A stretch of 43,587 bases of DNA from an uncultured Sphingomonadaceae bacterium (GTDB taxonomy: Bacteria > Pseudomonadota > Alphaproteobacteria > Sphingomonadales > Sphingomonadaceae), in the NCBI GenBank assembly GCA_902806235.1, contig CADCVW010000089.1, forward strand, positions 1 to 43,587. The letters run 5' to 3'. This document shows positions 1,876 through 5,865 of the stretch, one piece after another (position 1 is the stretch's first letter; the number at the start of each line of letters is the position of its first letter). Position numbers and translations under genes: made by a program. The notes beneath the pieces are model-generated. The model was not told where the DNA came from, searched no databases, and worked only from the letters and a program-made list of their open reading frames with translations.

Positions 1876-3324
1876 ATGCCCATGCTGCCCGCCCTCGTCG
1901 CCGCGCTGCGCGACCTTCTCGGCCCCAAGGGCTACGCCGACGATCCCGCGGAACTCGCGCCGTGGCTTACAGACTGGCGGGGGCGGGTGACGGGGCGGGC
2001 GGCGGCCATGCTGCGGCCGGACACCGCGGAACAGGTGGCGGCGATCGTGCGGCTGTGCGCGGCGGCGGGCGTCCCGCTCGTGCCGCAGGGGGGCAATACG
2101 TCCATGGTGGCGGGCGCGGTGCCCGGCGAGGCAGATGACGCGCTACTGCTGTCGCTGCGCCGGCTGAACCGGGTCCGCCGCATCGACACGGAGGAAAATC
2201 TGGCGGTCGTCGAGGCGGGAGTGGTGCTGGCGGACCTGCACGACGCGGCCGCGGCGGTCGGGCGGCGCTTCCCCTTGTCCTTGGGAGCGAAGGGGAGCGC
2301 GACGATCGGCGGGCTGGTGAGCACCAATGCGGGCGGCACGCAGGTGCTGCGCCATGGCACCATGCGCGCGCTGACGTTGGGGGTGGAGGCGGTGCTCGCT
2401 GACGGCGCGCGCTTCGATGACTTGGCCGCGTTGCCAAAGGACAACCGCGGCTACAACGTCACCCAGCTGCTGATCGGCGCGGAAGGGACGCTGGGCGTGG
2501 TCACGGCGGCGACGTTGCGGCTCTCGCCCGCGGTAGGCGCGCGAGCGGTGGCTTGGGTCGGGCTGCGCGCGCCGGCCGACGCGCTTCGCCTACTGCGGCG
2601 ACTGGAGCGGGCGCTGGGCGACGCGGTGGAAGGTTTCGAGCTGATCCCGGCGATCGCGCTGGAGCTGGTGCTGCGTCACGTGCCGGGGACGCGCGCGCCT
2701 TTGGGCGGGGCGTGGCCGTGGCACGCGCTGGTGGAGGCGGTGGCGGAGGGCGCGCCCGACCCGGGCGAGGCGCTCGCGACGGCGCTGGGCGAGGCGCTAG
2801 CGGCGGGGCTGGTCGGCGACGCGGTTCTGGCCGCGAGCGAGCGCGACGCGGGAGAGTTCTGGCGGCTGCGCGAGAGCATCGCGGAAGGCGAGCGGGCGGA
2901 AGGCCCGGGGGCCAAGCACGACGTTTCACTGCCCGTGGCGGCGATGCCGGCCTTCCTGGAGGAGGGCGCGGCGGCGGTGGGCGGCGCGTTTCCCGACACG
3001 CGGGTGATCGCTTTCGGCCATCTGGGCGACGGCAACATTCACTTCAACGTTGGCGCGCCGTCCACGGCCGGCGCGGACCCGGCGCGCTGGTTGGCCGAGG
3101 ACGCGCCGGCGATCACTCGCTTCGTCAACGACCTGGTCGCGGCGCGCGGCGGCTCCATCTCCGCCGAGCATGGCATCGGCCAGCTCAAGCGCGACGAGCT
3201 GCTGCGGTTAAGCGATCCTGCGCGGCTCGGCGTGCTGCGCGCGATCAAGGGGGCGCTCGACCCGCTGAACATCATGAACCCGGGCAAGCTCGTCCCGCTT
3301 GCGGAGGAGGGGACGGGGCAATAG
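1876..3324 (+). CDS. FAD-binding oxidase, D-2-hydroxyacid dehydrogenase type (GlcD/D2HGDH/Dld2 family)
   Basis: A flavoprotein of the VAO/GlcD family that oxidises a D-2-hydroxyacid (D-lactate, glycolate or D-2-hydroxyglutarate) to the 2-oxoacid, passing electrons to quinone or an electron-transfer protein. The N-terminal FAD-binding domain shows PQGGNTSMVAGAVP, NAGGTQVLRHG and IGAEGTLGVVT. The C-terminal substrate domain shows HLGDGNIHFN and EHGIGQLK, whose histidines bind the metal and substrate in this family, and it ends with LDPLNIMNPGK. The frame stays open upstream to 1804, but ATG 1876 (or 1882) is preferred because AAAGAG lies just before it and family similarity begins there. It gives 482 residues, normal for the family. 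The substrate cannot be told from sequence alone. Confidence 0.9.
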   Translation: MPMLPALVAALRDLLGPKGYADDPAELAPWLTDWRGRVTGRAAAMLRPDTAEQVAAIVRLCAAAGVPLVPQGGNTSMVAGAVPGEADDALLLSLRRLNRVRRIDTEENLAVVEAGVVLADLHDAAAAVGRRFPLSLGAKGSATIGGLVSTNAGGTQVLRHGTMRALTLGVEAVLADGARFDDLAALPKDNRGYNVTQLLIGAEGTLGVVTAATLRLSPAVGARAVAWVGLRAPADALRLLRRLERALGDAVEGFELIPAIALELVLRHVPGTRAPLGGAWPWHALVEAVAEGAPDPGEALATALGEALAAGLVGDAVLAASERDAGEFWRLRESIAEGERAEGPGAKHDVSLPVAAMPAFLEEGAAAVGGAFPDTRVIAFGHLGDGNIHFNVGAPSTAGADPARWLAEDAPAITRFVNDLVAARGGSISAEHGIGQLKRDELLRLSDPARLGVLRAIKGALDPLNIMNPGKLVPLAEEGTGQ

Positions 3325-3364
3325 AGCGCGCCGTCAACGACCCCCGACGAACTGGAGTGTAGAA

Positions 3365-4162
3365 ATGGCGAGCGCGCCCGCCCCTGAGAACCTGCCGTTG
3401 TTCTACAAGCAGCTGGAGCCGCTTTCGACCAACAACCACGCGAACTACCGCGCGCGGCCGGCGGAAAAGGCGCCGTTCCTCCACGCCACTCACGCCGTGC
3501 CGGTGACAGTGGACGAGTTCGTGCTCGCTCAGCGTTATTACCCGATCGTCTTCTCCGTCGGCGACAACCCCGTGCCGCTGGCGCTAATGGGGCTGAACGA
3601 GGGGATGAACGTGTTCGTGGAGCCGGACGGCGGCCTGCGGGGCGAGGTGTACGTGCCCGCCTACGTCCGGCGCTACACGTTCATGCTCGCGCGGCTGAAC
3701 CCGAACGCGCAGGAACTGTCGCTGTGTTTCGACCCTACCAGTGACAACGTCGGAGCGTTCAGCGAGGGCGACGCCCTGTTCGAGGACGGCAAGCCAAGCG
3801 AGGCGACCCAGGCCATTCTGAAATTCTGCGAGGAGTTCGAGATGTCCGCCGGACGCACCGGCCAGTTCGTCGAGGAGCTCAAGAAGGCGGAGCTGTTGAT
3901 CGACGGCGAGGTGAGCATCCAGGCGGGGACCGAGGAGCCGCCCGCGGTGTACCGCGGCTTCCAGATGGTGTCGGAGGAGAAGCTGCGTGACCTGCGCGGC
4001 GACGCGCTGCGTCGTATGAACCAGAACGGCATGCTGCCGCTGATCTTCGCCCACCTGTTCTCGCTCTCCATCGTGCGCGAGATCTTCGCCCGGCAGATTA
4101 GCCTCGGGCTGATGCCCGCGCCGGGCGCCCCCGTACCGCTGCAGGCGACGGTTCAGCCCTGA
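3365..4162 (+). CDS. SapC family protein
   Basis: Encodes 265 residues from ATG 3365, preceded by GGAG at 3353-3356. It matches the SapC family (named after a Campylobacter surface-layer locus). I see the conserved N-terminal block with RYYPIVFS and the later block with FAHLFSLSIVREIFARQ. There is no signal peptide or membrane segment, so it is predicted to be cytoplasmic. The biochemical role of the family is unknown; in sphingomonads relatives often lie near TonB receptors and tryptophan-halogenase-like proteins, but neither is present here. It lies 40 bases after the FAD oxidase and may be co-transcribed with it. Confidence 0.9.
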   Translation: MASAPAPENLPLFYKQLEPLSTNNHANYRARPAEKAPFLHATHAVPVTVDEFVLAQRYYPIVFSVGDNPVPLALMGLNEGMNVFVEPDGGLRGEVYVPAYVRRYTFMLARLNPNAQELSLCFDPTSDNVGAFSEGDALFEDGKPSEATQAILKFCEEFEMSAGRTGQFVEELKKAELLIDGEVSIQAGTEEPPAVYRGFQMVSEEKLRDLRGDALRRMNQNGMLPLIFAHLFSLSIVREIFARQISLGLMPAPGAPVPLQATVQP

Positions 4163-4196
4163 CGCGGCACCGTACGTCGCGGACGTCGCGGCGGGC

Positions 4197-4224
4197 TTGA
4201 AACCCGCCGGGAGCGCCCTAGTTT
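4197..4224 (+). promoter_or_regulatory. Sigma-70-type promoter for the small RNA
   Basis: TTGAAA at 4197-4202 and TAGTTT at 4219-4224 are separated by 16 bases. The expected start of transcription, about 4231, coincides with the base of the first hairpin of the predicted small RNA, which supports both calls. Confidence 0.55.
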
Positions 4225-4230
4225 GAGTAG

Positions 4231-4337
4231 GATGCTCCGCCGCTTCACCCCTTGGCGGCGAGCATTACGCATCCCCGGATGCGTTCCTCCCTGAACCTTG
4301 GCCACCTCGCGATCCTCGCGAGGTGGTCTTTTATTTT
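4231..4337 (+). ncRNA. suhB / alpha-r8 (MmgR-like) trans-acting small RNA
   Basis: A gene-free stretch between SapC and the N-formylglutamate amidohydrolase has the plan of a small RNA. Hairpin 1 pairs about 4232-4243 with 4255-4265 (11 pairs and one bulged C). Hairpin 2 is CGCATCC/GGATGCG at 4268-4283. An unpaired TTCCTCCCT follows at 4284-4292, then a strong Rho-independent terminator. From established knowledge, the alphaproteobacterial suhB (alpha-r8, MmgR) family carries an unpaired UUUCCUCCCU element before its terminator, and this matches nine of its ten bases. Such CU-rich loops pair with Shine-Dalgarno regions of target mRNAs. Assignment to this family is from memory and structure by eye; targets are unknown. 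Confidence 0.72.
4302..4337 (+). terminator. Rho-independent terminator of the small RNA
   Basis: CCACCTCGCG at 4302-4311 pairs perfectly with CGCGAGGTGG at 4317-4326 around a five-base loop. The run TCTTTTATTTTT follows. It is the clearest intrinsic terminator in the window. The facing gene ends only seven bases beyond it. Confidence 0.88.
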
Positions 4338-4343
4338 TGGGGT

Positions 4344-5210
4344 CTATTCGGCGGCGATCTGGCGGGGGACCGGGAGCGCCGCGGCGAGCGCGTCGACCGT
4401 CGCGGCGATCGCCGCCGCGGTGCGGGCGAAGCCGGGGCCGGGGCTCGCGCCGTCGGGGCCGAGGTAGAGCGCGCGGTCGATCTCCAGCTGGATCGCGTGC
4501 AGCCCCCACGCGGGGCACCCGTGGCGCTCGACGACGTGGCCGCCGGCGTCGCGCTGGTCGAGCGCGACGACGAGGCCGGACGCCTCCAGCGAGCGCCGCA
4601 GCGCGCGCACCAGGTCGCGGTCCGCCGTCGCGCCGTGGCGGTCTCCGATTACCGCGTCGACCCGGCCGGGACTAGCGGAGGCGGCCAGCGGGGGCATCGA
4701 GTGACAGTCGAGCAGCACGGCCGCGCCGAACCTGTCGCGGAGCGCGCGCAGCCGCCGCGCGAGCTCGGCGTGGTAGGGGACGTGGATCTCGCGCACCCGC
4801 CGTGCCGCCTCCGCCGCGGGCAGCAGGCCGCGCCACAGTGCTTCGCCGTTCGTCGAGCGCGGGAACAGCCCCAGTCCGCCGCGCACCCGCGCCGTCAACA
4901 GCAGTCCGGCGCGCGGCGGGGCCGGGTCGATACCTGCCGGGTCTAGCTCGGCGAGCGCGCGGTTGAGGTCGATCGCCGCGCGGGGCACCGTAGCGGCAAT
5001 CCCGCCCGCGCCGCGCGCGGCCGCGTCCGCCACGAGCTGATCGACGAGCGGGTCTTCAAGCGTACGGAGCGCCCCCGGTGCGCGCGCGGCGGCGAGGAGC
5101 TCGGGCAGATAGGCGCGCCCGGCGTGGGGCACGGACAAGAGCACGGGCAGGGTCGGCTCGGCCGGGCCGAGCGGGACGAAGGCGGGAAGGGGAGCGGGCG
5201 CGCAGTCCAT
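4344..5210 (-). CDS. N-formylglutamate amidohydrolase family protein
   Basis: Encodes 288 residues from ATG 5210. The family hydrolyses N-formyl-L-glutamate to formate and glutamate, the last step of one histidine-degradation route (HutG). Conserved features are SVPHAGR near the N terminus, DLNRAL, LLDCHSMPP and DAVIGDRHGA, which supply the metal-binding His and Asp residues. The frame is open upstream to 5291 but that extension is Arg-rich and unlike the family. No other hut genes are near; in sphingomonads this gene is commonly found divergent from cpdR, as here, so its true substrate may not be linked to histidine. Family certain, role moderately sure. Confidence 0.88.
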   Translation of the reverse strand: MDCAPAPLPAFVPLGPAEPTLPVLLSVPHAGRAYLPELLAAARAPGALRTLEDPLVDQLVADAAARGAGGIAATVPRAAIDLNRALAELDPAGIDPAPPRAGLLLTARVRGGLGLFPRSTNGEALWRGLLPAAEAARRVREIHVPYHAELARRLRALRDRFGAAVLLDCHSMPPLAASASPGRVDAVIGDRHGATADRDLVRALRRSLEASGLVVALDQRDAGGHVVERHGCPAWGLHAIQLEIDRALYLGPDGASPGPGFARTAAAIAATVDALAAALPVPRQIAAE

Positions 5211-5362
5211 CGTCGTCCTATTTCGCGGGCGGGGCGCACACGCGCAACCACCCCCGGGCAACGCGCGGCGGCGAACGCCGGGCGCGGCCATGCTTCCAAT
5301 TTGTTAACCTTCCCCTCATACGTCGGGGTCATCCGATCACGTCCCGGAGCGGTGGGCTGCCC

Positions 5363-5740
5363 ATGTTACGCATTCTCCTCGCCGAGGACGACGACTCGAT
5401 GCGTGAGTATCTCGCTCGCGCGCTGGAGCGCGTCGGCTACGCGGTGAGCGCGGTGGACCGGGGCACGGAAGCGCTGAAGCTGCTCGTCGACCGGCGCTTC
5501 GACCTGCTGCTCACCGACATCGTGATGCCGGAGATGGACGGCATCGAACTGGCGCAAAAGGCGAGCGGCATCGCGCCCGACATGAAGGTGATGTTCATCA
5601 CAGGCTTCGCCGCCGTCGCGCTGCGCTCCAACGCGGCTCCGCCGCAGGCGCGGGTGCTGAGCAAGCCGTTCCACCTGCGCGACTTGGTAGCCGAGGTCGA
5701 TCGGCTCTTCCAGAGCGAGGACGCGCACGGGCGGCTCTGA
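5363..5740 (+). CDS. cpdR: CpdR-type single-domain response regulator
   Basis: A 125-residue stand-alone receiver domain with no output domain. It shows the acidic pair (AEDDD, 7-11), the phospho-acceptor Asp52 in LLTDIVMPEMDG, Thr80 in FITGF, and Lys101 in LSKPFHL. The sequence is typical of CpdR, which in Caulobacter, when unphosphorylated, docks to ClpXP and directs timed proteolysis of cell-cycle proteins, and which is phosphorylated through the CckA-ChpT relay. The ATG at 5363 begins the canonical fold. A TTAACC element at 5304-5309, resembling a CtrA half-site, lies upstream, so CtrA control is possible but not shown. tRNA-Val follows. Confidence 0.93.
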   Translation: MLRILLAEDDDSMREYLARALERVGYAVSAVDRGTEALKLLVDRRFDLLLTDIVMPEMDGIELAQKASGIAPDMKVMFITGFAAVALRSNAAPPQARVLSKPFHLRDLVAEVDRLFQSEDAHGRL

Positions 5741-5790: not shown

Positions 5791-5865
5791 GGGCGTGTAG
5801 CTCAGTGGTAGAGCACTGTGTTGACATCGCAGGGGTCGCAAGTTCAATCCTTGCCACGCCCACCA
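5791..5865 (+). tRNA. tRNA-Val (anticodon GAC)
   Basis: The acceptor stem GGGCGTG (5791-5797) pairs with CACGCCC (5855-5861). The D arm is GCTC/GAGC. The anticodon arm CTGTG-TTGACAT-CGCAG places GAC at positions 34-36. The T arm carries TTCAATC. The discriminator A and an encoded CCA end the gene at 5865. Confidence 0.96.

Follow-up and report, generated by a model that had tools for sequence, protein, structure and literature searches.

The closest described systems are the alpha-R8 small RNAs (sRNAs; RF00519, suhB/mmgR), represented by MmgR of S. meliloti and SisA-D of C. crescentus. As set out in PMC12559287, their hallmark is an internal single-stranded 10-mer, UUUCCUCCCU, located downstream of a weak hairpin, and the RNAs typically adjoin a gene for N-formylglutamate amidohydrolase (FGase); a Rho-independent terminator at the 3' end is a further criterion given there, and the sRNA described below has one. 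SisA acts as a repressor of several mRNAs; for one of them, direct pairing of the 10-mer ahead of the start codon has been validated, for four others it is a prediction, and Hfq assists SisA in pairing with the sponge CrfA (PMC12559287). MmgR without the 10-mer leads to over-accumulation of polyhydroxybutyrate (PHB; PMC12559287). Among sphingomonads, Sphingopyxis granuli TFA has a 61-nt SuhB that acts together with Hfq to repress thnR under catabolite repression (PMC6563040). Among the papers whose titles and abstract openings were surveyed, none deals with the locus considered here in sphingomonads.

The window analyzed is the whole stretch of 43,587 nucleotides from an uncultured Sphingomonadaceae bacterium, and the feature of interest lies in a 181-base gap (4163-4343) between a sapC-family gene (3299..4162, + strand; PF07277, 219.3 bits; stop at 4162), which is taken as context only, and a convergent FGase gene (4344..5291, - strand; PF05013, 202.5 bits; end at 4344), which marks the alpha-R8 locus by synteny. 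The preliminary description had placed a promoter, two hairpins, an unpaired stretch and a strong terminator in this order in the gene-free gap, and all of these elements are found. A sigma-70-like promoter (4197..4224, + strand; TTGAAA at 4197-4202, a 16-base spacer, and TAGTTT at 4219-4224) precedes a predicted sRNA gene of ~107 nt (4231..4337, + strand), which is placed in an FGase-linked sphingomonad branch of the alpha-R8 (suhB) type on the basis of its fold, its conservation and a covariance model, R1, introduced below. The fold begins with a 5' hairpin (4231..4266, + strand) bearing the C-rich loop TCACCCCTT at 4245-4253, followed by a second hairpin (4267..4284, + strand). Next comes the core TTCCTCCCTGAACCTT (4284..4299, + strand), which consists of an anti-Shine-Dalgarno-like seed with a conserved GAACCTT extension; base 4284 closes hairpin 2 in the fold, and 4285-4299 (UCCUCCCUGAACCUU) are unpaired. 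The RNA ends in a Rho-independent terminator (4300..4337, + strand) with a stem at 4300-4328 and a U-rich tail. For the 107-mer, the computed folding energy is -54.6 kcal/mol (z = -8), a value equaled by none of 200 shuffles, and a terminator scan of 3900-4700 gives a single match, at the 3' end of the sRNA (0.3 expected). Past the FGase gene, the window holds a response-regulator-domain gene (5078-5740, + strand) and a tRNA gene (5791-5862, + strand), and many related loci likewise have response regulators and tRNAs close to the sRNA.

A DNA search of relatives recovers homologs that are most strongly conserved over the core and the terminator. Of the 30 loci retrieved (L002-L031), 28 contain the string CTCCCTGAAC and the remaining two are unrelated matches, so that the string is invariant among the 27 homologs that were aligned. 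Three loci were excluded from the family for lacking SapC and FGase nearby (L028, L030 and L031); L030 and L031 are also coreless, and L028 is without the U-tract. Two loci from sister families (L024 and L029) were left out of set A2 and of a broader set of 99 homologs, and three others (L100, L149 and L169) were left out of the latter for lying close to locus ends. Because the core string served to fetch or anchor both homolog sets, the identity of the core within them is partly a product of selection. The paired regions are also conserved by compensation: across 25 sequences, hairpin 2 and the terminator covary, with two-sided changes in 13 of 20 pairs (6/7 in the hairpin and 7/13 in the terminator) and 98.2% of cells paired. 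Cells with two-sided changes number 65 versus 19.7 in shuffles, none of 500 shuffles is as good on both the pairs with two-sided changes and the share of cells paired, and the signal is lost when the pairing partners are slid; further pair types, one of the five covariation measures, did not exceed the shuffles. The covariance model R1 was built from these 25 sphingomonad sequences, including that of the window, which as a training-set member scores 79.8 bits at 4232-4339. Searches with R1, which are independent of the core string, match 103 of 119 Sphingomonadaceae genomes (99 of the 113 of good quality), training-set members among them, mostly with one copy per genome (98 matches above 40 bits and five weak ones at 26-36 bits), and 16 of the 119 yield no match. 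By these comparative criteria, the feature is a conserved, predicted sRNA gene.

The assignment of this gene to alpha-R8 is less direct. It resembles the described members in having a CCUCCCU core after a hairpin and a terminator directly downstream, as well as a convergent FGase neighbor, and it differs from them in falling under the Rfam cut-off. The preliminary description had named a score below threshold in the RF00519 model as grounds for abandoning the identification, and this is the outcome obtained: the RF00519 (suhB/mmgR) covariance model gives 24.3 bits at 4262-4341 against a gathering cut-off of 41, no match at the gathering score occurs within the window, and none of the 36 window-type loci scanned (of 80) passes. 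Other weak Rfam matches (e.g., rli32, anti-hemB, tRNA-Sec, 6C and ar7) were far under their cut-offs and were rejected. The RF00519 scores could be taken to mean that the gene is a sphingomonad sRNA unrelated to alpha-R8, whose anti-Shine-Dalgarno core came to resemble that family by convergence and whose position beside FGase is due to chance. The same reading draws on the rarity of the whole 10-mer, UUUCCUCCCU, which just 6 of 100 window-type sequences retain (this count required a shorter flank and so takes in 100 sequences versus 99 in the other counts), and on the presence in the same genomes of above-cut-off suhB genes elsewhere.

Against convergence stands the synteny common to both groups. 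Convergent FGase genes lie directly downstream in 72 of the 80 loci fetched by the core (80 of at least 119 stretches containing it), and among the 30 top alpha-R8 loci at class level, a set of RF00519 loci comprising the best of one genome each, all outside Sphingomonadaceae, 26 have an FGase open reading frame (ORF) in convergent orientation within 1.5 kb. The eight loci without FGase consist of five from Sphingobium (L102, L132, L148, L155 and L169), in which the sRNA is kept and an adjacent FGase match is absent, and three (L108, L145 and L149) that end 62-540 bases downstream. Model searches in the reciprocal direction also argue against chance resemblance, as R1 recovers all 30 class-level loci, with E-values of at most 0.0027 and scores reaching 41.8 bits. 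Moreover, some loci pass both models: in other families of the order RF00519 and R1 match the same places, e.g., G048:C81 (RF00519 55.6 bits, R1 45.2 bits) and G046:C10 (54.3 and 42.7 bits), both with a convergent FGase, and within the family window-type bridges occur in G296 (RF00519 42.0 bits, R1 91.0 bits) and G082 (41.4 and 67.2 bits). FGase is within 1.5 kb of only 6 of the 22 order-level loci (L256-L277), from which we infer that the linkage was lost or the copies moved in several lineages. Taken together, the reciprocal recovery and the bridges indicate, at the level of sequence comparison, that the window sRNA shares descent with accepted alpha-R8 members, and convergence is unlikely. 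The failure against RF00519 is outweighed by the architecture, the convergent FGase, the reciprocal model matches and the bridging sequences, and the sub-cut-off score looks like a false negative. The alpha-R8 identification proposed earlier is therefore upheld, by a route other than RF00519, and we assign a probability of roughly 0.84 to the reading that 4231-4337 encodes the Sphingomonadaceae FGase-locus alpha-R8 (suhB/MmgR/SisA) sRNA, diverged past the Rfam cut-off.

The suhB genes that Rfam does recognize in this family are a different set of loci. Such RNAs had been supposed to be seldom annotated in sphingomonads, a supposition that does not hold, as Rfam suhB scores above the cut-off in 46 of 59 family genomes. 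The source genome itself carries a separate above-cut-off suhB (G000:C83, 47.8 bits); a second weak match in this genome (G000:C37:16928-17009, - strand, 28.1 bits) is below the cut-off. The 31 above-cut-off Sphingomonadaceae suhB loci examined, one of them from the source genome, are sited apart from the window-type locus; none of the 31 has FGase near, and the core of every one (L001 1501-1578, L032-L061) reads AUCCUCUCCY instead of the 10-mer. R1 reaches E <= 1 in only seven of these 31 loci and never exceeds 15.6 bits. The string TTCGCACTTGC is present in 20 of the 31, and in several it is upstream of the RNA. Because of the FGase and core counts, the RNAs called suhB by Rfam in the sphingomonad loci examined are, by sequence comparison, paralogs with an altered core, and the sphingomonad RNA at the alpha-R8 locus is one that Rfam misses. 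The SuhB of S. granuli TFA is likewise an alpha-R8-related sphingomonad sRNA and probably shares its mode of action with the window sRNA, but the two differ in length. Judging by length, we infer that TFA SuhB is one of the short RF00519-positive paralogs (AUCCUCUCCY, no FGase nearby), since its 61 nt fit these rather than the ~107-nt RNA.

The position of the RNA raises the question of whether it is transcribed independently. Only 68 bases separate the sapC stop from the start of the RNA, whose end is ~7 bases short of FGase, so that the feature might instead belong to the sapC transcript, as its 3' end or terminator region, or act as a terminator for the convergent genes. However, of the 68 of 80 window-type loci that have sapC upstream of the core (80 of at least 119 stretches with the core), 24 have it ending at least 639 bases away and still retain the RNA, and conservation is centered on the unpaired core, beyond what a terminator stem alone would account for. 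A further point against this reading is the U-tract, which is on the + strand only. A conserved promoter pair directly upstream of the RNA also speaks against both versions: the TTGAAA/TAT-like pair is common to the 27 homologs aligned with flanks, and it matches at 9 or more of 12 positions in 78 of 99 distinct homologs versus 2.3% of shuffles, a test that is partly non-independent because the consensus was derived from the same homologs that were scored. A generic sigma-70 scan found no promoter in this region of the window, and the promoter call rests on comparison. Origin as a sapC 3' end or a mere terminator is accordingly very unlikely. A small-protein gene across the hairpins, for which the window offers a 20-codon ORF (e.g., from ATG at 4232 to the TGA in CCTCCCTGA), can be dismissed as extremely improbable, given that the longest closed ORF within the RNA varies from 0-4 to 35-39 aa among homologs (<15 aa in 57 of 99) and that the stems change by compensation.

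Within the alpha-R8 sRNA thus proposed, the core departs from that of the described members. The nine-of-ten match to the hallmark that was initially reported is confirmed, with GUUCCUCCCU (4283-4292) aligning to the published 10-mer at 9/10 positions; the hairpin that it follows, hairpin 2, is strong rather than weak. The full 10-mer is present in 29 of 30 class-level loci, whereas the branch to which the window belongs mostly lacks its 5' U's, and conservation there runs in the 3' direction as CCUCCCUGAACCUUGGCC. The string UUCCUCCCU is found in 23 of 100 window-type sequences and CCUCCCU in 99 of 100, most of which were fetched by that string, and the branch retains CCUCCCUGAACC together with the following UUGGCC. 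In homolog folds that extend past the U-tract, the mean unpaired value of the seed is only 0.645, a point against the proposed reading.

The 5' hairpin is the second point of departure. A hairpin in this position is visible by eye in several alpha-R8 members of other families, and its region is stable across the 99 homologs (mean z -2.84; 77 of 99 below -1.5). What distinguishes the window type from the other families is the C-rich loop: 96 of 99 window-type sequences have an unpaired CCC toward their 5' end, and among alpha-R8 sequences from other families the count is 10 of 53. The loop occurs mainly in two versions, CCUCA(U/C) in 47 sequences (named carriers are Erythrobacter, Novosphingobium and relatives) and CCCUUUC in 44 (Sphingomonas, Sphingobium and relatives), with eight sequences carrying other versions, including CACCCCUUGG of the window. 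GsrN, the CcsR/cuckoo RNAs and LhrC are C-rich-loop sRNAs in which unpaired C-rich sites pair with mRNA leaders; the comparison with the window sRNA concerns this feature. We offer as a tentative suggestion, on balance doubtful, that the FGase-linked alpha-R8 of Sphingomonadaceae became a two-site regulator, combining the 3'-shifted core with a C-rich 5' loop in two lineage versions, and that the short paralogs with altered cores serve other targets.

By analogy with characterized relatives, the window RNA is most likely an Hfq-assisted blocker of Shine-Dalgarno sites. The transcript would bind Hfq, and its CCUCCCU core would pair with several mRNAs at their purine-rich Shine-Dalgarno regions and so make them less translated or less stable, probably within the control of carbon or growth status; the conserved C-rich 5' loop would probably be a second pairing site. 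The source genome encodes an Hfq of 164 aa with two tandem Hfq domains (L310 1216-1710, - strand, contig C107), and two hfq-like copies are mentioned for Novosphingobium aromaticivorans (PMC3474761). Candidate sites of the form AGGGAGG-N3-10-ATG number 28 in this genome versus 4 for a reversed-pattern control, and their duplex energies look good, though complementarity to Shine-Dalgarno sequences is expected anyway. The best of the small target candidates encodes a PspB-like membrane protein and matches over 10 bases. It was the sole candidate tested across relatives, and it was rejected as a non-conserved target because just 7 of 98 homologous ORFs have AGGGAGG upstream, a count that takes in its own gene and two ORFs duplicated in overlapping loci. 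PspB-like small membrane proteins are clustered in Sphingomonadaceae (L280-L309, e.g., G002:C1:1311897-1313918), with seven matches in G002. The link to PHB storage raised in the preliminary description, on the precedent of rhizobia, finds no visible counterpart here: none of the 28 AGGGAGG-ATG sites is located at any of the phasin and phaC genes identified in the source genome, which leaves a PHB role for this organism unsupported rather than refuted.

Sphingomonads are studied for the breakdown of pollutants and lignin, yet the alpha-R8-related RNA characterized in these bacteria (S. granuli SuhB, as described in PMC6563040) is probably just one of two kinds. The second kind occupies the ancestral locus in most of the family's genomes, and the Rfam cut-off misses it in the loci scanned; adding new seed sequences would benefit Rfam, and how labor is divided between the two sphingomonad RNA kinds becomes testable. 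Of most interest is the putative second C-rich site with its lineage-specific versions: if the two-site reading is true, the version of the loop would track a change of targets between the two lineages.
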